DNA from: Actinomycetes bacterium
Lineage (GTDB): Bacteria > Actinomycetota > Acidimicrobiia > Acidimicrobiales > RAAP-2
DNA length: 64,000 bases
Direction of reading: 5' to 3'
Assembly (NCBI GenBank): GCA_021782915.1
Contig: JAJXUK010000008.1
Location: forward strand, 1 to 64,000
Made by a program: the position numbers and the translations under genes. This document shows, in pieces, positions 7,007 to 21,228 of the stretch. A model generated the notes under the pieces. That model saw only the letters and a list, made by a program, of their open reading frames with translations, made no database searches and had not been told where the DNA came from. Position 1 is the first letter of the stretch. Each line of letters starts with the position of its first letter.

Positions 7007-8140
7007 GTGCTTGATGACGAGGCAGGTCTAGACGTGGCAACGGCGGTTCTCTTCGGTGGCCCGAGCCCCGAGCACGACATTTCGATCCTGACGGGCCTGC
7101 AGGCCCTGCGTGAGCTCGAGCGCGCCGGGCGCTCGGCGACGGGAATCTACTGGAGCAAGACCGGCGCCTTCTACGCGCTGAGCGCGGGGGTGGAGGCGGA
7201 GTCCTTCATCGAGGGTCTGCCGCGGGGCTCCTCGGAGCTGCACCTGCGAAGCGGCGAGGGTGGCGGGTTCTTCGCCCCGGCCGGCCGGCTCGCTCGTGAG
7301 CGGCGCCTCGAGCTCGACGTGGTGATCCTGGCGACCCACGGGGGCCCGGGTGAGGACGGCTCCCTGCAGGGTGCCCTGGACCTAGCCGGACTGAACTACA
7401 CCGGCCCGACGGTGTCGGGGGCGGCCCTCGGGATGGACAAGTGGGCCTTCGGCGCGGTCGTGGCCCTGGCCGGCCTGCCGAGCCTGCCGCGTGCGCTGCT
7501 GAGCAGTGCGACGACGGCGCTGGACTTTCCCGGACCGTACATCCTCAAGCCGCGATTTGGCGGCTCGTCCATCGGCATCGACGTCGTGTCGGACCTGGCG
7601 ACCGCCCAGGCGCGCCTGGCCTCGAACACCCACTTCGCGCGCGGCTGCGTCGTGGAGCCCTTCCGCGCCGATCTGCTCGACGTGCAGGTCGCCGTGCGCA
7701 CGCATCCTCAGGTGAGCCTGTCGGCCATCGAGCGTCCGCTGCGGCGAAGCGCCGGGACCGAGATCCTCGACTACCGGGACAAGTACGTGGGCGGTGAGGG
7801 AATGGTGTCGGCTCCGCGCGAGTTGCCGGCTCGTCTCGCTCCCGGCCAGGCCGAGCAGATCGAGCACGCCGCACGCGTGCTGGTGCAGGTCGCCTCGGTG
7901 CGCGGCGTGGCCCGCGTGGACTTCTTGGCCAACGACGATGAGCTCTACGTCAACGAGATCAATACGATCCCCGGCTCGCTGGCCAAGCACCTCTTCGTCG
8001 AGCCCCCGCTGAACTTCCTCACGCTGCTCGATGACCTAGTCGACGAGGCGCTCACCCGACCGGCTCGTCACTACAGCGCCGCCGGCGCCGACGGACTCGT
8101 GTTGCGCAGTGCCGGCTCGATCGCGGCCAAACTCGCGTAG
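7007..8140 (+). CDS. ddl: D-alanine--D-alanine ligase family protein
   Basis: A protein of up to 377 residues with the ATP-grasp Ddl layout: N-terminal VLFGGPSPEHDISILTGL, ATHGGPGEDGSLQGALD, GMDKWAFGAVVALAGLP, the ATP-binding loop YILKPRFGGSSIGIDVV, and the metal-binding end VARVDFLANDDELYVNEINTIPGS. It should make D-Ala-D-Ala (or a D-Ala-D-X depsipeptide) for MurF, whose homologue is immediately upstream. The start is uncertain. GTG at 7007 abuts the MurF-like stop, while GTG at 7034 is preceded by a purine-rich GAGGCAGG and begins the conserved domain directly. The 3' end overlaps the convergent BTAD gene by about 105 nt, which is unusually long. Confidence 0.9.
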   Translation: MLDDEAGLDVATAVLFGGPSPEHDISILTGLQALRELERAGRSATGIYWSKTGAFYALSAGVEAESFIEGLPRGSSELHLRSGEGGGFFAPAGRLARERRLELDVVILATHGGPGEDGSLQGALDLAGLNYTGPTVSGAALGMDKWAFGAVVALAGLPSLPRALLSSATTALDFPGPYILKPRFGGSSIGIDVVSDLATAQARLASNTHFARGCVVEPFRADLLDVQVAVRTHPQVSLSAIERPLRRSAGTEILDYRDKYVGGEGMVSAPRELPARLAPGQAEQIEHAARVLVQVASVRGVARVDFLANDDELYVNEINTIPGSLAKHLFVEPPLNFLTLLDDLVDEALTRPARHYSAAGADGLVLRSAGSIAAKLA

Positions 8141-9712
8141 TCGGGGCACCTCGGCCAGAGCCGCCGAGAGCGCGTCGCTGTAGGGGTCGAGTAGACGACC
8201 TTGCTCGATGGCCCAGAAGGCGAGCTCAACGTCACCCTCGTCGGCGGCCCAGCGCGACAGGGCCAGGGCGGCCCACTCGCCCTCGCGCGCCAGTCGCGCG
8301 ACGTGGCCCTCGGCCAGGAACCACTCGTAGCCGCGCAGCACCCCGGCCAGCGGCTCGCCGCGCACGAGCGCGAGCGCGTCGCGCAGCGCCCGGGTCCCGC
8401 CACCGCTGCGCGCCGAGCGCACCAGGGCGTGGAACTGCTCGACGTCACTGTCCAGCCCGTGGGTCTCGTAGAGACCGGCGGAGCTGACCGGATGCAGGCG
8501 CGCCCCGGCGTCGTCCACACCCAGCGCGCGGCGCAGCGTGGTCGCGGTGTTGGCCAGGGTGCGCACCGAGGCGTCGACGTCGGCGTGCGCGAGTACGCGG
8601 CTGCGCAGGCGGTCCCCGGTCACCGGCTCGAGCCGGTGCACGGCCAGGTAGGCGGCCATCTCGATCGCTCGACGTCGCAGTGGTGCTGCCAGCTCCTCGA
8701 CCAGCCCGCTCAGGCGCGGCTCGGCACGCAGCAGCTGAACTCGACACGCGTCGCGCGTCGTGGCCGGGACCGGCGTCAGGCTCAACTCGCGCGCACGGGG
8801 GCGTGCGCTGCGCACCACGCGCACGGCGCGGGTCATCAGTTCGTCATCGGTGCGCTCGCCGTCGTAGAGGACCACGCTGGTGAGCGGGCTGCGCGTGGCC
8901 AGCGCGCGCAGCAGCTCACTCTCGCAGACCGTGACGCGCAGGTCGCCACCAGCGTGAGCCAGCACGACCTCGGCGGCGAGATCGGCGGTGCTCGTCTCGG
9001 GCGGCACCCGCAACGTGCCACCCTCGCGAGCGAAGGCCACGGTCACGCTGCGGGCGTCGTGACCGAGCACGATGAGTGCCAGGGGGGTCTGGGTGTCGAG
9101 GGGGCTGTCGGCGAAGGCGCCACTGAGGCGCACGACGCCGTCGCGCGACCCGGCGAGCAGAAAGTTGAGCTGGCCGAGCAGGGCGACGTCACCCTGGCGC
9201 AGTTGAGCGAGCGCCGTGTCCACGTCCTCGTCGTCGGGCGCGGCGCGTCGCAGCGAGTCGCGTCGGCGCTTGGCGCTCATGGCCAGCACGAGTGCTCCGG
9301 GCCCTGGTGGACCCGGCGTCGCATGACGGGTCGGCTCCGGGCGCGCCCGTGACGACGTCGCGCTGAGCCCAGCCCGGGCGCTCAGGCTCACCGACGGGGC
9401 GCTCGGCCGACTGCTGAGAGCCCCTCCCGGGGCCAGCAGGCTGAGCGACGCCAGGGCGACGAGCACACCGGCGAGCCACGCGCTACCCCCCGAGCCCACG
9501 CTCTCGCCTCGCCGAAGACGCACGACCTGGCGCACCAGCTGGACGAGGAAGATCACCCAGAGCGCCCCGAGGCTGACGAGGAGGACGTGCACCGGGGCAC
9601 TGTCCGCGCGAGAGGCACTGGCGCGCCACTTGGCGAGCACGACGTAGGGCAGCAGGAGGAAGTACAGACCCAGCGCGGTCCCGTGCAGTGGGCCGCTCAG
9701 GAAGCGCTTCAC
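8036..9712 (-). CDS. Membrane-anchored protein with C-terminal BTAD-type regulatory domain
   Basis: About 558 residues from the GTG at 9712, which overlaps the upstream gene's stop as GTGA. The longer ORF upstream is the shadow of that gene. Two N-terminal hydrophobic segments occur (about residues 12-32 and 43-62) with a third near 82-100. An Ala/Pro/Ser-rich linker and a middle domain without a recognised family follow. The C-terminal part has the winged-helix/BTAD arrangement: a domain around RLRSRVLAHADVDASVRTL, ATTLRRALG, then helical repeats (EQFHALVRSARSG to FWAIEQGRLLDPYSDAL) like the bacterial transcriptional activation domain of SARP/AfsR regulators. No DNA target is visible. A transmembrane, BTAD-bearing regulator is inferred. 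Confidence 0.7.
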   Translation of the reverse strand: MKRFLSGPLHGTALGLYFLLLPYVVLAKWRASASRADSAPVHVLLVSLGALWVIFLVQLVRQVVRLRRGESVGSGGSAWLAGVLVALASLSLLAPGGALSSRPSAPSVSLSARAGLSATSSRARPEPTRHATPGPPGPGALVLAMSAKRRRDSLRRAAPDDEDVDTALAQLRQGDVALLGQLNFLLAGSRDGVVRLSGAFADSPLDTQTPLALIVLGHDARSVTVAFAREGGTLRVPPETSTADLAAEVVLAHAGGDLRVTVCESELLRALATRSPLTSVVLYDGERTDDELMTRAVRVVRSARPRARELSLTPVPATTRDACRVQLLRAEPRLSGLVEELAAPLRRRAIEMAAYLAVHRLEPVTGDRLRSRVLAHADVDASVRTLANTATTLRRALGVDDAGARLHPVSSAGLYETHGLDSDVEQFHALVRSARSGGGTRALRDALALVRGEPLAGVLRGYEWFLAEGHVARLAREGEWAALALSRWAADEGDVELAFWAIEQGRLLDPYSDALSAALAEVPRLREFGRDRAGTAQHESVGAGGAVVTSRSGERLVD

Positions 9713-10311
9713 GGCCCCGGCGCCAGTCGCCACTGGCTGCTCGTTGAGCTCGCCGAACTCAGCAGAAGCTGACACGTCTGGGCGCTCACGATCAGAACGC
9801 TCGCCGAGCCGGCGGCGCTCGGAGCCGGACAGCTCAGTTGCGTGGCGATCGGCTCGGAGCTGTGCAGCGTCCAGGCGCCCGGTCCGCTCAGGGGCACGGC
9901 CAGGGTCTGGCCGGGGGCCAGGACGCCGCTCAGGGTTCCCGTCGCGACGGCGTCGGGCGCGCGCGACGCGCCGAAACTCGCGCTCACGTCGTTCGTCCTC
10001 GAGGAGGCGCCGGCGAGCGGCACGCTGGTCGTCGAGCTCGGCGCGGACGTCACGGGCGTCCTCGGGGCGTAACGAGGCGAGGAGATGTCGCGTGGTCGCC
10101 CCGAGGCCGCGCGCTGGGCTCGGATGTGCGTCGGCGAACGTGGCGTCGAAAGAGACCCGGGACGTGGCTGGGCCGCGGAGCCCTTCATGGTCAGCACCAT
10201 GACGAGCAGCAGCAGCGGGCTCGACCACGTGACCAGACTCGATCCCCAACGAGACGTGGATGCTCTGGCCATCGAAGGGGCAGGGTAGTGAACCAGGCGG
10301 CGTCGCTTCAT
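9709..10311 (-). CDS. Single-pass membrane or exported protein, unknown
   Basis: A 200-residue protein. A basic N-terminus (MKRRRLVHYPAPS) is followed by one hydrophobic stretch around residues 27-43, then a Ser/Thr/Pro/Ala-rich extracytoplasmic region and a C-terminal beta-rich part containing PGQTLAVPLSGPGAWTL. Two cysteines in the last 50 residues could form a disulfide outside the membrane. No family is recognised. It lies 48 nt downstream of the sigma-like gene and overlaps the BTAD gene by 4 nt, so it is probably a partner of both. The coding frame is preferred over the opposite-strand ORFs because of this coupling and the clear membrane segment. Confidence 0.6.
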   Translation of the reverse strand: MKRRRLVHYPAPSMARASTSRWGSSLVTWSSPLLLLVMVLTMKGSAAQPRPGSLSTPRSPTHIRAQRAASGRPRDISSPRYAPRTPVTSAPSSTTSVPLAGASSRTNDVSASFGASRAPDAVATGTLSGVLAPGQTLAVPLSGPGAWTLHSSEPIATQLSCPAPSAAGSASVLIVSAQTCQLLLSSASSTSSQWRLAPGP

Positions 10312-10359
10312 CGGACAAAAGGCCCAATTCGGCTCTGGGGCCGGCCCGTCTCAACTCGC

Positions 10360-11058
10360 TCACAACAGACAGCGCAGGGCGAAGCGACGCAGCTCAGAAC
10401 GCAGGGCGGCCGGACTCGAGTGATCGTGGTGGGCGAGTTCACGCACAGAGTGGCCCCCGAAGACGCGCGCGTAGGTGAGCCGAGCGAGGCGCTCGTCGGG
10501 ACCGCCCCGATACGCGGCCAGTCTGGCCTCGAGGAGCGAGGCGGCGGGAGCCGCAACGTCGGCGACGTCGAAGTGCTCGACGAGGCTGGCCAGGCCCTTC
10601 TCCTTGAGCAGCCAGCGCCGCAGACGCCCGCGCAGGGCCGACAGCAGGTCGGGACCGGCGTAGTCGCGCCGCTGGCCGGCCCAATCGACCAGCAGTTCGC
10701 TCAGCAGGCTGAGTGCCACCCCGAAGACCTCTGAGGGGTCAGCGACGATGCCGTCGCCGAATCGCAGCTGGCGGCACACGCTCACCACGCCGGGTACCAG
10801 GGTCTGTAGCAGGGCGCGGCGCACGTGCGGATTGCGTGCCTCCTCCAGCAGCGCGCGCACCAGGCGGGCCCGCTGCTCGACGTCCAGGCCCGCGTGCTCC
10901 TCGAGGCTGCGCACGACGTCGTAGAGGTCTAGCGCGTACGGCGGAACCTCCTCCGGGTGCCGCTCGCGCAGCACGCCTAGCGCGGCCTCGGCGTCGGGGC
11001 CGCGTCCGGCGCGCAGCCAGTCTCGGCGAAGTTGGTGGATGAGGTCGATGTTTGTCAT
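10360..11058 (-). CDS. Sigma-factor-like putative regulatory protein
   Basis: About 232 residues from the ATG at 11058 (MTNIDLIHQLRRDWL); the ORF track's longer start reads into a less typical sequence. The protein is all-helical in appearance. The middle part (DPSEVFGVALSLLSELLVDW then LRGRLRRWLLKEKGL) is weakly like sigma region 2. The C-terminus (RLTYARVFGGHSVRELAHHDH followed by RSELRRFALRCL) resembles a region-4 helix-turn-helix. Resemblance is by eye only and no exact family is claimed. It heads an operon with a membrane-anchored exported protein and a membrane BTAD protein, which is why a regulatory role is proposed. Confidence 0.5.
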   Translation of the reverse strand: MTNIDLIHQLRRDWLRAGRGPDAEAALGVLRERHPEEVPPYALDLYDVVRSLEEHAGLDVEQRARLVRALLEEARNPHVRRALLQTLVPGVVSVCRQLRFGDGIVADPSEVFGVALSLLSELLVDWAGQRRDYAGPDLLSALRGRLRRWLLKEKGLASLVEHFDVADVAAPAASLLEARLAAYRGGPDERLARLTYARVFGGHSVRELAHHDHSSPAALRSELRRFALRCLL

Positions 11059-11192
11059 CGGCCCAGTGAAGAAGGGGTCCCGACATCCCCGACGCCAGTG
11101 CGCGCGCCACTCGCCAGGACGTTCTTGACACCGTCGGGGACGCACACGCGGGTTCACTCGCCGACGCACAGGGGCGGGCGTAGGCTGCGGCC

Positions 11193-11534
11193 ATGGACAT
11201 CGAGACCTTCTATGAGCAGAATGAGGCTCGCCGTGAGAGCGCCGAGTTCGAGTTCGGCAGTGAGTGGACCGACGCGTCGGGCAACGAGTACGAGCTGTCC
11301 TGGGTCGAGGCGACGGGCGAGCTCTACCTCATGGTCGAGCCGGACGCCCTCGTGAATGAGGACATCTTCGGCGACTTCCTGGTCTCGGACGAGGACGTCA
11401 ATGAGCTGACCGTGGTGATCGTGGCGAAGGTCCCGTCACTGGCCGCGCTCGAGGACCGCCTCCAGGGCTGGGAGGACGCGATGTTGGAGGACAACTCCCT
11501 GGAATGGCTCTACGAGCGCGTCGGGGACGCGTGA
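11193..11534 (+). CDS. Small acidic protein, unknown
   Basis: A 113-residue, strongly acidic protein rich in Glu and Asp (MDIETFYEQNEARRESAEF, FGDFLVSDEDVNEL). It has no membrane segment, signal peptide or known motif. The ATG comes six bases after a TAGGCT hexamer (TAGGCT gcggcc ATG), the leaderless pattern common in this window, which supports the start. It is transcribed divergently from the sigma-like gene and converges with the lipoprotein gene, ending 5 nt before that gene's stop. I do not recognise the family. The composition and the promoter argue that it is a real gene. Confidence 0.7.
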   Translation: MDIETFYEQNEARRESAEFEFGSEWTDASGNEYELSWVEATGELYLMVEPDALVNEDIFGDFLVSDEDVNELTVVIVAKVPSLAALEDRLQGWEDAMLEDNSLEWLYERVGDA

Positions 11535-11538
11535 GGGA

Positions 11539-11907
11539 TCAGAAGTAGGGCTGACTCGAGTCGGCCACCTGACACAGGCGCGTCAGAGAGGCCACGAGGT
11601 TGCCCAGCGGGACGCGCTCGGCCTCGTTGATGGTCGTCATGAGCGGATTCCACGTCCCGTCGGCCGAGGTCGCCTGGGCGGCGGCTGGGGTCGCGGCCAT
11701 CAGCGTTGCCATGGCCCGCGCGGCCAGCGCGTCGCGCTCGGCGGCGTCGCGGTTCGGGCGGAGCGACTCGTCGTACAGAGCGATGGCCTTGTGCACGTCG
11801 ACGCAGGCCAGACGGGCCTGAGCGACGGCGCCGCCCCCGCCGCAGGCGGAGAGTCCGAGGCCGGCCAGCCCGATGACGACGAGGCGGCCCAGCCTCAGGC
11901 CAGCCAC
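11539..11907 (-). CDS. Putative lipoprotein
   Basis: A 122-residue protein with a short type II signal peptide: basic MAGLRLGR, hydrophobic LVVIGLAGLGL, then lipobox LSAC with the lipidated Cys near residue 22, followed by GGGG. The mature part is small and Ala-rich, with two further cysteines (ARLACVDVH and LTRLCQVADSS) that may form a disulfide. No family is recognised. Its start overlaps the end of the upstream conserved gene by 13 nt, so the two are probably co-transcribed. Expected location is the outer face of the cytoplasmic membrane. Confidence 0.75.
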   Translation of the reverse strand: MAGLRLGRLVVIGLAGLGLSACGGGGAVAQARLACVDVHKAIALYDESLRPNRDAAERDALAARAMATLMAATPAAAQATSADGTWNPLMTTINEAERVPLGNLVASLTRLCQVADSSQPYF

Positions 11908-12452
11908 GAGTCGGCGGCCTGGAGCAGGAAGTCGCTCACGCTGCGTCCGTGCTCGAAGATGTCACACAGCGGGTCCTCACCCTTGGCGACCTGGCTGAGC
12001 GAGATCGCTCGGCGGGCCACGATGGCGATGCGTCGCTCGCTGGCCTCGGTGGGCGAGGCGAAGGTGTCCGTGGCCGTCACCTCGAGGGGCATCTGCATGC
12101 CGCCCACCGGGGCCAGGTCGATGGCCAGACGCAGCAGGTCTGGGCCGTGGGGCAGTGGGGGCAGGCTCCAGGTCAGCACGAGGGGAAAGTGGAACTCGTC
12201 GGGCGGATCGACGTCGTCCGGCAGGCCCATGACGGCGTCCTCGAAGGCCAGCAACGTTCGCGGGTCCACGTCGAGCTCGATGTGCAGGTCCACGGGTCCG
12301 CCACAGCCCTCCTCGGGGTGCAGGTCGACCTCCCAGGCCTGACGCAGCGAGTACGTCTCGACGAAGTGGCGCTCGTCGTGCACGTGAAAGCCGTGCGAGA
12401 CTGCGTGGTCCTTCAGGTCGGCGATGAATCCAGCGACGTCTATGGCGGCCAC
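11895..12452 (-). CDS. Conserved hypothetical cytoplasmic protein
   Basis: A 185-residue protein from a GTG start placed seven bases after TAACCT on the minus strand, matching the local leaderless pattern. It has no signal or membrane segment. It is rich in acidic residues and contains HPEEGCGGPVDLHIELDVDP and FHFPLVLTWSLPPLP, with alternating hydrophobic strands suggesting a beta-sheet protein. I do not recognise a named family. It overlaps the downstream lipoprotein start by 13 nt. A regulatory or structural role cannot be assigned. Confidence 0.7.
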   Translation of the reverse strand: MAAIDVAGFIADLKDHAVSHGFHVHDERHFVETYSLRQAWEVDLHPEEGCGGPVDLHIELDVDPRTLLAFEDAVMGLPDDVDPPDEFHFPLVLTWSLPPLPHGPDLLRLAIDLAPVGGMQMPLEVTATDTFASPTEASERRIAIVARRAISLSQVAKGEDPLCDIFEHGRSVSDFLLQAADSWLA

Positions 12453-15896: not shown

Positions 15897-16799
15897 GAGC
15901 GCCGCGGGGCCGTCGTCGTCGAGATAGAGGGCGGTGCTGCGCCGCCGTGCGTGTGCCACGTGTGCTCGCCAGCGCCGACGCAATTGAGCCATCTCGTCGC
16001 TGAGCTCGCTGAGGGCGATGGCGACGGGCTCTCGACGAGACTCATCCTCATCGAGGGGCCATCGAGAGGCGCGCCAGCGGGTGAGGAAGTCTCTGGCCAC
16101 GACGCGGTCATGCAGGTCGCCAAGGACTCCTTGGGCTTTGGCCAGGTCTTTCGCGACAGCATCAGCGCCTGCACCGAGCGCGGGCGTGGCCACCTCGCAT
16201 CGATATCGGTTGTGCTTGATCGCGATGCGCACGCGATGAAGGTCCTCGTCCGTGGGATTAGGCCCGAGCGAGTCAACCGTGTCAAAGAGCTCACCCAAGC
16301 CGCCAAGAACCCCGGGGCGAAGGATGCTCGAGGCGGATTTGTGGGCACGGCGGCGCAACGGGGGAGCGACGGCCCACGCGGCCAAGGTGGTGACCAAATC
16401 TTGGTAGCGCCGGCTCGAGAGGGCTTCGCTCACGTGGCGACGTTCACGTTCGCGTTGACGCCGCAGTAGAGCGAGCACGCTGGCGTCGAAGGGCACGTCC
16501 TCGTGCTCGACGTGGCAGAGAAGTTCGTAGAGCACGTCAAGATCACGCTGGCGACCCAAGACTCCGCCGATCCAGCGCAGCTCGCGACTCGTATGGGCCG
16601 CGGGTTTCTGTGAGATCGTCTGGGTGAGCACGCCCATCTCCGCCCGCAGGCGTCGGGCTGCGACTCGCAGTTGGTGTACGCCTTCGGGATCCCGACCCTC
16701 GCGAGCCAGTGGATCGAAGCGCAGCCAGCTACTGAGTTCGTGCGTGAAGACCTCGCGGGTCAGCGCTTCGCCGCTCGGACTCGACGGGGAGCGAGTCAT
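15873..16799 (-). CDS. CHAD domain protein (probable polyphosphate binding)
   Basis: About 308 residues from the ATG at 16799 (MTRSPSSPSG), chosen over the longer ORF start because the family begins soon after it. The CHAD domain is made of two helical repeats with conserved basic and His residues: VHQLRVAARRLRAEM near residue 40 and LHRVRIAIKHNRYRCE near residue 180. Family members bind polyphosphate through this basic surface. No CYTH domain is fused and no polyphosphate kinase gene is next to it. The C-terminus is acidic (DDDGPAALSDETSDE). It lies 130 bp from the tRNA-Val gene and marks the conserved side of the island boundary. Confidence 0.88.
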   Translation of the reverse strand: MTRSPSSPSGEALTREVFTHELSSWLRFDPLAREGRDPEGVHQLRVAARRLRAEMGVLTQTISQKPAAHTSRELRWIGGVLGRQRDLDVLYELLCHVEHEDVPFDASVLALLRRQRERERRHVSEALSSRRYQDLVTTLAAWAVAPPLRRRAHKSASSILRPGVLGGLGELFDTVDSLGPNPTDEDLHRVRIAIKHNRYRCEVATPALGAGADAVAKDLAKAQGVLGDLHDRVVARDFLTRWRASRWPLDEDESRREPVAIALSELSDEMAQLRRRWRAHVAHARRRSTALYLDDDGPAALSDETSDE

Positions 16800-16929
16800 T
16801 CGCGCACCATCTCGGATCCCGTGAGCAGACCAATGACCATCGTCAACACTCCCGTCAGTGGCAAATCTAGCCCGCGGTGCCACGCGCTCCCTGGGGTGCG
16901 AACACTCGGAGGGTAGGCTTCTGTCTCCC

Positions 16930-17003
16930 GGGCGCTTAGCTCAGTTGGCTAGAGCAGCTGACTTACACTCAGCAGGTCGGGGGTTCGAGTCCCTCAGCGC
17001 CCA
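16930..17003 (+). tRNA. tRNA-Val (anticodon TAC)
   Basis: A 74-nt cloverleaf. The acceptor stem GGGCGCT pairs with AGCGCCC. The D-arm includes AGCTCAGTTGGCTAGAGC. The anticodon stem GCTGA/TCAGC encloses loop CTTACAC with anticodon TAC. The T-arm is GGGGGTTCGAGTCCCT. The discriminator is A and CCA is not encoded. The gene's 3' end is duplicated about 68 bp downstream, a typical trace of integration at a tRNA gene. Confidence 0.97.
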
Positions 17004-17075
17004 CGAAAGTGTCCCAGAAATACTGAGACATGGTGTCCCAGAAACCCTGACACCTCAGACCTCAGCGCCCACGAA
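16992..17075 (+). repeat. Direct repeat of tRNA-Val 3' end, att-site-like scar
   Basis: The 16-mer CCTCAGCGCCCACGAA covers the last bases of tRNA-Val at 16992-17007 and recurs exactly at 17060-17075. Site-specific integrases commonly use tRNA 3' ends and leave such duplications. Only 52 bp separate the copies, so the present interval is a scar or a short insertion, not an intact element. No integrase gene is recognisable nearby. The second copy sits at the edge of the lower-GC segment carrying VapBC and the XRE protein. Confidence 0.6.
17009..17053 (+). repeat. Two tandem imperfect inverted repeats, IS-end-like
   Basis: GTGTCCCAGAAA begins at 17009 and again at 17033, giving a 24-nt tandem unit. 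Each unit is itself an imperfect inverted repeat: TGTC-CAG with CTG-GACA in the first and GTGTC-CAG with CTG-ACAC in the second. Tandem short repeats of this sort occur at the ends of some insertion sequences, for example the IS21 type, where the transposase binds. No transposase ORF is present, so this would be a remnant. A tandem regulatory operator is the alternative. Confidence 0.4.
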
Positions 17076-17101
17076 GTTGAATCGACTGAACCGCATTGGG
17101 T

Positions 17102-17497
17102 TCAGACGGTAATTACGTGGATCAATTCTTCGAGACCAGTGAAGTCGTCTGGGTTGCGCGTGTAGAGCGTCAGACCGTTGGCGTGGGCGATTGCCGCGAT
17201 CAATAGATCGGCCATGCGTGATCGGTGGGTTCGGCCGGTGCTGGCAACAGCGGCAACTACTTGTCCAAAACTACGCGCGGCCGCAGCGTCGAAGGGGATG
17301 GGTTCGAAGGTCGCCTCCGTTTGCTGAAGGCGAGCCTGGCGGTTTGCTTGCTCGGTGACCGACGACGCCAGCATTGGTCCTGCGGCCAACTCTGCAAGAG
17401 TGATCGCACTCACCGAAATCTCCTCGGGCAAGGCTCGTTGAACCGCGGGTTCATCCCAGTCGATGACCACTGAAGTGTCGAGTAGGCCCGTAGTCAT
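17102..17497 (-). CDS. vapC: VapC-family PIN-domain ribonuclease toxin
   Basis: A 131-residue PIN-domain protein. The acidic residues expected for Mg binding are seen in order: Asp in GLLDTSVVIDW (residue 7), Glu in ITLAELAAGP, Asp in SRMADLLIAAIA and Asp in YTRNPDDFTGL. PIN toxins of VapBC systems cut tRNA or rRNA when released from their antitoxin. The start follows the vapB stop with no gap, so the pair is one operon. It sits right beside the duplicated tRNA-Val end, consistent with a horizontally acquired addiction module. Base composition is clearly less GC-rich than in flanking genes. Confidence 0.92.
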   Translation of the reverse strand: MTTGLLDTSVVIDWDEPAVQRALPEEISVSAITLAELAAGPMLASSVTEQANRQARLQQTEATFEPIPFDAAAARSFGQVVAAVASTGRTHRSRMADLLIAAIAHANGLTLYTRNPDDFTGLEELIHVITV

Positions 17498-17746
17498 CTA
17501 GAACTCTTGGTCAACAAAGTTGTCGAAGTCGGCTCGAAATCGTTTTGCGTCAATGCGCGGCCCGGTCTCGGCGAAACCAGCGATGGCGGATTTCGGAACA
17601 ACGGTTCGCCGTGGCGCGAAGAGAGGGCGTAGTTCGGCCACCGGGATTCCGTTGCGGGTCACCACGAAACTCTCGCCCGCGACGACCTCGTCGATCACCT
17701 TGGCGTTCTCGTTGCGTAGTTCACGCTGGGCAATGGTTTTGGTCAT
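17498..17746 (-). CDS. vapB: VapB/Phd-YefM-type antitoxin
   Basis: About 82 residues starting at MTKTIAQRELRNE; the ORF-track start seven codons earlier is less likely. The N-terminal Phd/YefM fold is shown by QRELRNENAKVIDEV, GESFVVTRNGIPVAEL and the following strand. The C-terminal part (SAIAGFAETGPRIDAKRF) would wrap around the PIN toxin. A TACACT hexamer lies seven bases before the ATG with no Shine-Dalgarno, so the mRNA is probably leaderless. A perfect 13-bp inverted repeat just upstream is a likely autoregulatory operator for the VapBC complex. Confidence 0.88.
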   Translation of the reverse strand: MTKTIAQRELRNENAKVIDEVVAGESFVVTRNGIPVAELRPLFAPRRTVVPKSAIAGFAETGPRIDAKRFRADFDNFVDQEF

Positions 17747-17777
17747 GAGATGTAGTGTAGCCAATTGTGCGACGCAG

Positions 17778-17790
17778 TGCTACGATAGCA
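17778..17790 (-). promoter_or_regulatory. Candidate VapBC operator (inverted repeat)
   Basis: TGCTA-CGA-TAGCA is a perfect inverted repeat with 5-bp arms and a 3-bp centre. It lies about 32 bp upstream of the vapB ATG and just upstream of the putative -10 TACACT, in or near the -35 region. Phd/YefM-type antitoxins bind short palindromes at this position, so autorepression is expected. No direct evidence of binding is available. Confidence 0.45.
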
Positions 17791-18458
17791 AGTGGCGCTT
17801 CAGTTCATCGTGACGTACGAGCTGTCGCACCGAAAACGTGTTCAAGAGAGAGCGTCGAGCGGTTCATTCGTCACAACAGTGGATGATTGAGAGTCGCCAC
17901 GGTGAGGCACCGGTTCTTATTTCGTCCCTCAAGGTCCACTGGTCTTCAAGTTCTCGACGTTTCTCTGGTTGAACGGGACGCTGCAATATCTGATCGCACT
18001 GGGACCGTCTGCGAAGCGTACGGCCGCATCCAGTGCCGGTACTCGCCGGCTCCACTTTCGTCTCGCCGCTTTTGTCCCGACGAGCACGTCGATGGCGTTG
18101 TCAACCGTGCGCTGCGGCGATTGAGGTGGCGACGTTGGCGGGTGTCGGCATTAGGTCGATCTCGTCGCGGACGGCTCGTGCGCATCTCCCTCCGGGCGGC
18201 GATGCGTGGGCCGAAATCACTAGGGGATCCGAGGGGTTGCTGGACTCGGTTGGTCGTGGTCGTCATTGGGAGCTCTCGGCATGCCAACGAGTTGTTTCCC
18301 CGCTTGAGGATTGCCCAGGGAAGGTCAGAGTCCCGGTCATTCCTCGGTGCGATTTGGGAAGGGGTGCACTTGTGGTGCGCTGATGGCTGCGAGAATAGGG
18401 AAATGAGCGGTGTCGGATGGTTTGTTGCGTGTCTTCTCCGCAGAAGTGGGGCTGAGGA
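17791..18458. other. About 670 bp with no convincing gene, inside lower-GC island
   Basis: Several overlapping ORFs exist here, for example 17887-18462 (+) and part of 17946-18923 (-). None has a recognisable fold, ribosome-binding site or coupling, and their compositions (many Arg, Ser and Cys) look like chance translations. The base composition is closer to the VapBC segment than to the flanking genome. It may be degraded mobile DNA. I see no tRNA, CRISPR array or clear terminator in it. Confidence 0.5.
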
Positions 18459-19262
18459 ATGACGCCCGTCAGCACGCTCGGAGTAGCCCTGGCGCTTCGC
18501 CGACATGAATTGGGTCTGGACCTGACGAGTTCGGCACTCGCCATGGGAGTTAGTCGATCGACCTACACGGCCTACGAGATGGACTCGCGTCGGCTGTCCA
18601 TCGACACATTGCCCGTCCTGGCGAAGTTCCTCGATCTTCGGGTTGAGGAGATCCTCGATCTGTATGGAGCCACGTGTGTACTTCAGGCCAGCCGAGCGCT
18701 CCTGGGCGGCACCGATGCGCCGATGGCACGTGCCGAGGGATTCATCGAACGCGCTCGGGCCAACGGGGGCGGTCGCATGGACGTCGTGCGACGCGTGTAC
18801 TTCGACGGAGCCGCGGGCACGACTGACGATGAAGTTCCACGTACCTCGACTCTGCGTGACGGCGGTGGCGTCGCCACAGATGAGCCGGAGGGGACGACGG
18901 CGATGGACGAGTCGGACTTTCAACGGCCCGGCGACTACTCGCGAACTGGGTACGGCGAGGCAGCGATCTCACCGGTTCCGCCTCATCGTGCTCGTGGACC
19001 GCTCGCGTCTGAGAGTCCCGGTGCCTCGTCAGTGTCAGGTCTGAGGCGCGACCCTGACGGGTCGGGACCAACTGATGATCTACCCCAACCAGATTCGAAG
19101 AACAAGAACTCGAAGAAGTCGAAGGGCGCCACGAAGAACAAGAAGTCGAAGAAGTCGAAGGGCGCCACGAAGGTCAAGAAGTCGAAGACGACGAAGAAGT
19201 CGAAGGGCGCCACGAAGAACAAGAAGTCGAAGACGACGAAGAAGTCGAAGAAGAATCGCTAG
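18459..19262 (+). CDS. XRE-type HTH protein with lysine-rich repeat tail
   Basis: A 267-residue protein. Residues about 7-65 form a Cro/C1-type helix-turn-helix (ALALRRHELGLDLTSSALA, MGVSRSTYTAYEMDSRRLS, LPVLAKFLDLRVEEILDLYG). Residues 66-210 are low in predicted order, Gly/Ser/Pro/Asp-rich and without a known domain. The last 54 residues contain about 26 Lys in repeats of KKSKGATK and KSKTTKK, resembling histone H1-like or HU-tail DNA-binding extensions. The start has GAGGA immediately before the ATG. It lies in the tRNA-Val island beside VapBC. A nucleoid-associated or silencing regulator of the island is a hypothesis. Confidence 0.75.
   Translation: MTPVSTLGVALALRRHELGLDLTSSALAMGVSRSTYTAYEMDSRRLSIDTLPVLAKFLDLRVEEILDLYGATCVLQASRALLGGTDAPMARAEGFIERARANGGGRMDVVRRVYFDGAAGTTDDEVPRTSTLRDGGGVATDEPEGTTAMDESDFQRPGDYSRTGYGEAAISPVPPHRARGPLASESPGASSVSGLRRDPDGSGPTDDLPQPDSKNKNSKKSKGATKNKKSKKSKGATKVKKSKTTKKSKGATKNKKSKTTKKSKKNR
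19113..19256 (+). repeat. In-frame tandem repeats encoding the lysine-rich tail
   Basis: Variants of GTCGAAGGGCGCCACGAAG recur three times, separated by AAGAAGTCGAAG-type units and GACGACGAAG insertions. Unit length is a multiple of three, so copy-number change would lengthen or shorten the lysine tail without a frameshift. Such arrays are prone to slippage and recombination. The repeat also creates an artificial Arg-rich ORF in another frame and a Phe-rich ORF on the minus strand. Confidence 0.85.
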
Positions 19263-19389
19263 GTCGACCTAAAACGGACCGACCGAGTCGGTGCTGATAC
19301 TGGCGGGTAAGGCCCCGATTGCTGGACTCGTCGCGTGGGTTTTGCCTCGCCCTAAGTAGTTCGGGCTGGTCGTGGCATAATGGCTTCCC

Positions 19390-21228
19390 ATGTCTGAGTC
19401 AACGGACGCCGAAATCGGCCGCCCCCCTGAAGACTTCGACCTCAACGCAATTGGTGAGGGCCACCCCGTGGGCCTGCCGGTGTTCCAGCCAGAGGTCGAG
19501 CCGCATCTGCACAACCGGCGTCGGGTGAACAGTCCCTCCGAGTTGCAGAGCTTCCAGGACCTGGTGCACTTCAAGGCGAGTCATGGCCGCTGGCGCATTG
19601 CGCGTGACCTGGTTGGCCTGGTGCGGCGGGGCCACGCCGGTGAGTCGGACGAGTCCTACGGCGACAAGCTGCGTCGTGAGTCGCGCCGGGGCAAGACCGA
19701 GTCTTCGACGTATGGCCTGGGCACCATCGGGGGCCATCAGGTCGTCATCTTCGCCATGAATTGGGACTTCTTCGCCGGGTCACTCGGCGTCGTCTCCGGA
19801 GAGAAGTTCCAGGCTGCCGCCGACTTGGCAGTATCCAAGCGCTTGGCGTTCATCTCGGTCTACGCCTCGAGCGGCGTGCGTCAGCACGAGAACTTCGCGG
19901 GACTGACCCAGATGACGCGGATGGTCGAGGCGCTGCGGCACTTCAAGGACAAGGTCGACCTTCCTCAGGTCGCGGTCCTGCTCGGCAACGTATGGGGCGG
20001 GGTCTCGGCCAGTGCCGTGCCGAATGCCGATCTCATCGTGGCGACGTCGGGTACCAACTTCGGTTTCGCCGGTCCCAACGTGATCGAGGCCTTCGAGGGT
20101 GCCAGCGTGCCCAGTGGGTCCCAGAGCGCGGAGGCGAACCTTCTCGATCGAAATATCGACGTTGTGTTGTCGGATGTGGCTGACGTGGTCGTCTATCTCG
20201 AGTCCCTTCTGAAGGCAACGGAGCGGCCCGACAAGACGCATCAGCTCACCGCCGAGACGCCAACTCTGGTGCGTAACGTCGGGGCTCACGACGAGCGGCG
20301 CACGTTCCGCTTCGGAGGTCTGGGACTGCACGGTCCGCGCTTCGCCGACACCACGGATGGCGTGATTCTGCGGCCGGCGCCGAGTCGGCGCGCCGTCAGC
20401 GACGAGGCCGACGCGCTCGTCGCTCAGTACCAGGACCTGATGACCGACGCGAACCGGGTGGACTTCGAGTTCATCGTTCGCTTTGCCTTCACCGACGCGG
20501 TTGCTATCTACAACTACGTGCAGGAAGACGACATCCAGCGCTACCCGGCGATCGCGGGGGCCTTCGCCAGGATCGGCGCGCAGCCCTTCGTCGTCATCGG
20601 CACGCAGCCGTCGTATCAGCGACTGGGTGACGCCATCATCAAGCGACCGTCCAACCCGGGCCCCGAGGACTTCGAGTACATGGAGCGTCTCTTGGAGATG
20701 GGAGAGCGCCTGGGGGTGCCGGCGCTCTTCGTCACGGACACTCTCGGTGCAAAGCCGACACTGGAGAGCGAGCGGCGCGGTCAGTCACGCGCCATCGCGC
20801 GCTCGATCCTGCGCGGTATCGACTACGACGGTCCCGTCATATCGTTGGTGGCCGGGGCACTCGGCAGCGGTGGGGGCCTAGCCACGACTCCGATGGCCGA
20901 TCACGTCATCATGCTGGAGAAGGCCATGGCCTACGTCGCCGAACCACGTTCGGCCGCCTCGATCCTCTACAAGACGCCGAGTCCGACGCCTGAGCAGGTC
21001 AAGATGACACTGGCTACGATGCGCTCGACAGCCCAGGACCAACTTGAGCTGGGATTGATCGACTACGTGATCCCCGAGGACGCCAACCCGTTCGTGACCG
21101 TCGAACGGATCCACGCAGAGATCCAACGCGCCTACGTCGAGCTCTCCCAGATGTCTGTGCGCAAATTGCGCGCGCGACGCGAAGGGCGCATTCGATCGCT
21201 GCGCGCTTTTGACATCGTCCAGGAGTAG
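19390..21228 (+). CDS. Fused acetyl-CoA carboxylase-type carboxyltransferase (beta-alpha)
   Basis: A 612-residue protein joining two crotonase-fold carboxyltransferase halves. The N-terminal half resembles AccD/beta (GGHQVVIFAMNWDFFAGSLG, ASSGVRQHENFAG, VWGGVSASAVPNAD, FGFAGPNVIEAF) but lacks the four-Cys zinc finger of bacterial AccD. The C-terminal half resembles AccA/alpha (NPGPEDFEYMERLLEMGERLG, LVAGALGSGGGLATTPMAD, AEPRSAASILYKT). It would transfer CO2 from carboxybiotin to an acyl-CoA. No biotin carboxylase or carrier gene is adjacent, so the partner subunits must lie elsewhere. The acyl-CoA substrate is uncertain. The ATG follows a CATAAT/TAATGG sequence closely, with no Shine-Dalgarno. 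Confidence 0.88.
   Translation: MSESTDAEIGRPPEDFDLNAIGEGHPVGLPVFQPEVEPHLHNRRRVNSPSELQSFQDLVHFKASHGRWRIARDLVGLVRRGHAGESDESYGDKLRRESRRGKTESSTYGLGTIGGHQVVIFAMNWDFFAGSLGVVSGEKFQAAADLAVSKRLAFISVYASSGVRQHENFAGLTQMTRMVEALRHFKDKVDLPQVAVLLGNVWGGVSASAVPNADLIVATSGTNFGFAGPNVIEAFEGASVPSGSQSAEANLLDRNIDVVLSDVADVVVYLESLLKATERPDKTHQLTAETPTLVRNVGAHDERRTFRFGGLGLHGPRFADTTDGVILRPAPSRRAVSDEADALVAQYQDLMTDANRVDFEFIVRFAFTDAVAIYNYVQEDDIQRYPAIAGAFARIGAQPFVVIGTQPSYQRLGDAIIKRPSNPGPEDFEYMERLLEMGERLGVPALFVTDTLGAKPTLESERRGQSRAIARSILRGIDYDGPVISLVAGALGSGGGLATTPMADHVIMLEKAMAYVAEPRSAASILYKTPSPTPEQVKMTLATMRSTAQDQLELGLIDYVIPEDANPFVTVERIHAEIQRAYVELSQMSVRKLRARREGRIRSLRAFDIVQE

Follow-up and report, generated by a model that had tools for sequence, protein, structure and literature searches.

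A putative envelope-to-gene relay in Actinobacteria that combines a membrane-tethered SARP-type regulator, an exported protein and a sigma-like protein related to Tad-operon genes

Introduction

Three consecutive genes in an actinobacterial genome (assembly GCA_021782915.1, contig JAJXUK010000008.1) raise the question of whether a transcription factor held in the membrane, an exported protein and a sigma-like protein could together carry a signal from outside the cell to transcription. The window, which is the whole stretch of 64,000 nucleotides that was analysed, carries this trio on its minus strand between 8036 and 11058. The first gene, SIG (10360..11058, with its ATG at 11058 and its stop at 10360), encodes a putative sigma-derived protein of 232 residues; EXP (9709..10311) encodes a one-pass exported protein of 200 residues counted from the first ATG; and BTAD (8036..9712, with a GTG start at 9712) encodes a predicted membrane-tethered SARP-type regulator of 558 residues. 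An initial annotation had placed a sigma-like, an exported and a BTAD-type gene at these positions, as our gene calls confirm, and had proposed that they form an outside-to-transcription relay for which no similar named system came to mind. It had also named structure prediction and a conservation search among the means of checking the proposal.

We utilize comparative genomics, profile comparison and structure prediction to describe this locus. We arrive at a reading to which we give about an even chance, namely that the trio is a three-part envelope-to-gene relay that derives from regulatory genes of an actinobacterial Tad-pilus or conjugation operon and that controls its own promoter region.

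Results and discussion

Conservation and gene structure of the trio

Of the 37 genomes of the genus, 33 gave a match in a protein search with the BTAD protein (P0001), and identity was 40-60% for most of these; SIG adjoins BTAD in 28 of 30 fetched loci, with the remaining two ending at contig edges. Gene order within the genus is kept as Ddl - BTAD - EXP - SIG - '113' - '185', and the flanks are likewise kept, with UvrD, a hydrolase, a MurF-like protein and Ddl on one side and '113', '122' and '185' on the other. The conservation search thus upheld the trio as a unit. The four genomes that gave no BTAD and SIG matches also gave none for the neighbouring '185' gene. Mismatches in SIG and BTAD are enriched at third codon positions, and those in EXP likewise, if more weakly. 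None of the trio proteins scored above a curated cut-off in Pfam and NCBIfam searches, and neither P0001 nor one distant SIG homologue gave a match when plasmids were searched.

The BTAD start codon overlaps the EXP stop codon in the sequence GTGA. A second possible GTG at 9733 offers an alternative start; several relatives have no inner GTG, and the equivalent of the outer GTG is their only one. An alignment of 24 species shows a near-invariant methionine at EXP codon 14, so the EXP start is likely at 10272. The convergent genes BTAD and Ddl share ~105 bp of reading frame (8036-8140); overlaps of this type, roughly 50-110 bp in length, recur in most congeneric loci. Elsewhere in the window, the stretch 16000-20000 has a G+C content of 0.61-0.63 compared with about 0.70 around it and adjoins a tRNA-Val gene (16930-17004), and this stretch is possibly inserted DNA.

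A SARP-type DNA-binding half behind membrane helices

Alignment of 24 BTAD homologues defines a layout that begins with three membrane helices (9437..9691, minus strand, residues 8-92), which are assigned in the window protein from hydrophobicity and from AlphaFold2 helices at residues 8-32, 39-67 and 76-92. These are followed by a variable Ser/Pro-rich stretch, a short hydrophobic segment, a conserved basic (K/R)RRxD motif and a variable alpha/beta region. The C-terminal half is strongly conserved and is predicted to consist of a winged helix-turn-helix (8447..8746, minus strand, about residues 323-422), which is the most conserved part of the protein, and an all-helical BTAD domain (8123..8446, minus strand, about residues 423-530). 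Trans_reg_C, the OmpR-type winged helix, was matched in 23 of the 24 homologues; the exception is the window protein, whose winged helix is assigned from these homologues and from the predicted fold. Pfam searches of the window protein and its homologues gave no match to the Pfam BTAD domain.

The AlphaFold2 model of the protein (pLDDT 77.6) resembles AfsR (E 7e-4) and EmbR (E 2.7e-3) in Foldseek, and because of these matches we consider the C-terminal half to be a SARP domain; the central domain found no match in the full-model search. Structure prediction therefore recovered the HTH and BTAD folds that the initial annotation had coupled to N-terminal membrane helices. As modelled, the winged helix is followed directly by the all-helical BTAD domain, just as in the SARP family. 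However, members of that family are soluble and have the SARP domain at the N-terminus, whereas here it is C-terminal and lies behind three membrane helices.

The short hydrophobic segment, TM4, is a weak fourth candidate helix that is short throughout the genus, with the window protein showing the weakest one. The corresponding chromosomal locus in other genera of the family encodes a version that includes LysM and has a clearer fourth helix, and LysM was matched in two of the 24 aligned homologues. Since LysM should lie outside the cell and the SARP domain inside, we infer that TM4 must cross the membrane.

An exported partner translated just ahead of BTAD

Each of the 24 EXP homologues begins with a basic N-terminus and has a single membrane helix and usually a Ser/Thr/Pro-rich linker, followed by a C-terminal domain. 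In every one of the 24 species the ectodomain contains exactly two cysteines, spaced 18-21 residues apart, and this pair likely forms a disulfide. These features support the description of EXP as a one-pass exported protein.

The arrangement of EXP and BTAD resembles that of the ToxR/ToxS and VtrA/VtrC systems (PMC9214523), in which a tethered OmpR-type winged helix likewise has a one-pass exported partner encoded by an overlapping gene; for EXP this likeness is drawn from the GTGA overlap and a sequence-derived topology. There are also clear differences. ToxR/ToxS-type systems have an N-terminal HTH, a single membrane helix and a downstream partner gene, whereas the trio has a C-terminal HTH, three or four helices, an upstream partner, an additional sigma-like gene and unrelated sequence. 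The ToxR/ToxS-type partner has a lipocalin-like fold. The main text of a census of transmembrane regulators (PMC10269533) makes no mention of BTAD, SARP or LysM.

SIG is related to sigma factors through distant homologues

The AlphaFold2 model of SIG (pLDDT 86.5) is all-helical with a C-terminal HTH. Its top Foldseek matches are mostly sigma factors, all with E >= 0.2 and none significant, and a direct Pfam search of SIG gave no sigma match. The relationship emerges from profile comparison, in which the genus alignment of SIG (A1) was compared by hhalign with an alignment of 13 distant SIG homologues (A5) and matched over nearly its full length (probability 99.8, E 7e-30). When the PDB was searched with the A5 profile, 10 of 10 matches were sigma factors, including the ECF sigma factors SigH and SigE (E 2e-5 to 6e-5), and five of the 13 A5 members matched TIGR02937, the best at 9.9e-5, which is below the cut-off of that model. 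As judged by these sequence profiles, SIG is homologous, via its distant homologues, to sigma regions 2 and 4 of ECF sigma factors, and the term sigma-like in the initial annotation is justified by this route. SIG shares the sigma-2/sigma-4-like layout of ECF sigma factors; it differs from them by an extra N-terminal helical part of ~80 residues, by its far-diverged sequence and by the 12-bp repeat arrays that lie upstream of it.

Many ECF operons consist of a sigma gene followed by genes for membrane proteins, and the membrane protein genes of the trio also come after SIG. SIG might therefore be a working ECF-type sigma factor with BTAD and EXP as a membrane anti-sigma or release system, in which the contact of the SARP domain is with SIG instead of DNA and the short TM4 ahead of the (K/R)RRxD motif could be a site of proteolysis. 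However, Pfam and NCBIfam searches of the trio and of BTAD homologues did not find an anti-sigma domain, and SIG has diverged so strongly from ECF sigma factors that RNA polymerase binding is putative; we consider this scheme improbable. In AfsR, the SARP domain is in contact with sigma region 4 (PMC10936776), and a dedicated sigma-like partner is therefore plausible here.

SIG homologues also occur in other settings. For example, in another genome of the genus (G146, locus L202, 7634-10659) a second SIG homologue and a gene that matches the winged helix-BTAD part are arranged tail to tail; this pair, located near a phage-type integrase, shows SIG-BTAD pairing in another arrangement. Additionally, three loci of family f7 (L190, L191 and L194) have a SIG homologue with a 12-bp array divergent from a long gene with an FHA-like beginning, whose product was read by eye as an FtsK/EccC-like ATPase.

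A 12-bp repeat array between SIG and gene 113

The present analysis adds a feature that is absent from the initial annotation. Between SIG and its divergent neighbour, gene 113 (11193..11534, plus strand), there are direct repeats with a 12-bp period (11141..11169, plus strand; CGCAC at 11141, TTCAC at 11153 and CGCAC at 11165), which constitute a candidate operator, followed by a conserved -10-like TAGGCT (11181..11186, plus strand) located 12 bp upstream of gene 113. The genus-wide pattern in this interval is CGCAC-N7-CGCAC upstream of TAGGCT. A pair with 12-bp spacing occurs in 20 of 24 congeneric species; dinucleotide shuffles give 0.3 on average and 2 at most. The regions upstream of gene 113 in 12 genomes without the trio contain CGCAC once in all and no 12-bp pairs.

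Among 17 distant SIG homologues, 16 have the 12-bp period upstream with lineage-specific sequence, as do 9 of 13 held-out ones. Counting exact repeats of >= 6 bases, the 17 distant upstream regions contain 23 repeats at lag 12 (null mean 2.8, maximum 10 in 2000 draws) with echoes at lags 24 and 36 and with other lags at or near background, and the 13 held-out loci, found afterwards, contain 15 (against 2.65, maximum 10); these counts are not fully independent, as there is kinship among loci within one family and start codons were set by rule. The repeat unit varies by SIG lineage (CACGAC, GGCAAGGT, GGGGAAG, GGTGAG and others) while the period is constant. Codon periodicity was rejected as the source of this signal since lags 9, 15, 18 and 21 are about control level or below.

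Operators of SARPs are direct repeats with 11- or 22-bp periods that overlap or lie near the -35 element (PMC10936776). The array has a period of 12 bp instead, but it too consists of direct repeats at a promoter, and for this reason a SARP-type binder fits it. Nevertheless, one family has SIG and the array but lacks a BTAD gene within ~9 kb, so BTAD need not bind the array and SIG may. It is thus conceivable, if rather unlikely, that SIG alone binds the repeats as a multimer and autoregulates the operon while BTAD and EXP exert a modulating effect from the membrane and do not bind the repeats, an arrangement that would also agree with the shift of repeat sequence with SIG lineage. Against it stand the winged helix as the part of BTAD under the strongest conservation and the known binding of SARPs to direct repeats; moreover, genomes without a nearby BTAD gene may encode the protein elsewhere.

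Across trio-bearing species the strict repeat pattern recurs at the SIG-113 locus only, which speaks against a wide regulon. Gene 113 itself is a possible target that lies outside the trio. It was dismissed as a fourth component because it is found in many families of the order without the trio; among 248 sampled genomes of the order, 30 have it, many of them without the trio. Both '113' and '185' (11895-12452) are well conserved proteins to which we have assigned no function.

Relationship to Tad-pilus operons

A SIG homologue is present at one end of a Tad cluster in several further families of the order and also in less closely related members of the phylum. These clusters contain SAF/CpaB, TadA, TadB, TadC, pilin and TadE genes, and at their other end there is a LysM or LysM-BTAD gene, often beside a relaxase gene. 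The SIG homologue leads the run in most such clusters and is divergent from it in three (L095, L196 and L198). Tad operons on Streptomyces and Arthrobacter plasmids end in an annotated LysM protein or an unnamed equivalent, and proteins similar to one LysM-BTAD protein are encoded on 163 plasmid records. Examples are WP_202239792.1 on the Streptomyces plasmid pRVR1 and an equivalent on Arthrobacter pAL1; the annotation of such proteins is 'LysM peptidoglycan-binding domain-containing protein'. We found no description of the function of LysM-BTAD proteins, or of their sigma-like neighbours, in the literature searched.

The window protein has in common with these proteins the membrane helices, an outer segment and a C-terminal winged helix and BTAD domain, and its profile matches (L032-L035, L088-L090 and L096) show that the membrane and winged helix-BTAD parts are homologous. 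The absence of any similar named system, as initially stated, therefore does not hold, since BTAD can be assigned to the LysM-BTAD proteins of Tad operons and the overlap-coupled EXP resembles a ToxR/ToxS-type partner. The window protein differs by the loss of the LysM between TM3 and TM4 that is present in L031, L039 and L088-L090, and its genus differs by having no Tad genes and by keeping a three-gene module that includes EXP and has a constant chromosomal position. Because the relatives carry an external LysM and the window protein does not, we regard the latter as a derived form of the Tad-operon LysM-BTAD protein.

TadE is absent from 25 of 25 genomes of the genus as compared with its presence in 16 of 16 genomes of the other families, and thus the module appears to have outlived the pilus. 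The T2SSE ATPase is absent altogether from several trio-bearing genomes, and with TadE missing as well, a role for the trio in controlling Tad or type IV pili was rejected for the genus. The data are most simply explained if the genes at the two ends of a Tad operon have been retained as an independent regulatory module in which EXP lies between them. The same losses, of TadE and of LysM in most of the genus, could be those of a decaying relic that has no regulatory role. However, retention in 33 of 37 genomes, substitutions biased to third positions and a conserved candidate operator array are signs of purifying selection, and these make a relic highly implausible.

A model for the trio

Under the relay that we favor, BTAD would be a membrane-tethered SARP-type transcription factor with three helices, a short outside segment and a weak fourth crossing that leads to a cytosolic part composed of the alpha/beta region, the winged helix and the BTAD domain. 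EXP, translated just before BTAD, would be its one-pass exported co-component with a sensing or gating role outside, and EXP together with the outer part of BTAD would sense the state of the envelope. SIG would be a sigma-derived DNA-binding protein, and the array between SIG and 113 would be the operator for the promoter region of the module itself, where BTAD, perhaps with SIG, would act to control SIG-EXP-BTAD and possibly gene 113. The layout fits the outside-to-transcription relay first proposed, with LysM outside in relatives, EXP exported and a predicted DNA-binding end in the cytosol. Our data show the conservation of the trio, the folds or homologies of its members, the array and the origin from Tad genes; the signal, the membrane topology, DNA binding, the choice of SIG or BTAD as array binder and any contact or cooperation between SIG and BTAD are the parts of the model that we infer.

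In broader terms we suggest, with somewhat less than even confidence, that a sigma-derived family across Actinobacteria keeps an operator array of fixed 12-bp period and lineage-specific sequence, and that here it has been paired with a tethered SARP and an exported co-component as a stand-alone envelope sensor after loss of the Tad genes. The trio is a minimal, pilus-free version of the LysM-BTAD and sigma-like regulatory pair, and the 12-bp array offers a concrete DNA target with which to probe binding, autoregulation and the role of each protein. Should the trio operate as proposed, it would represent an actinobacterial co-component system of the ToxR/ToxS kind with a SARP as its basis.
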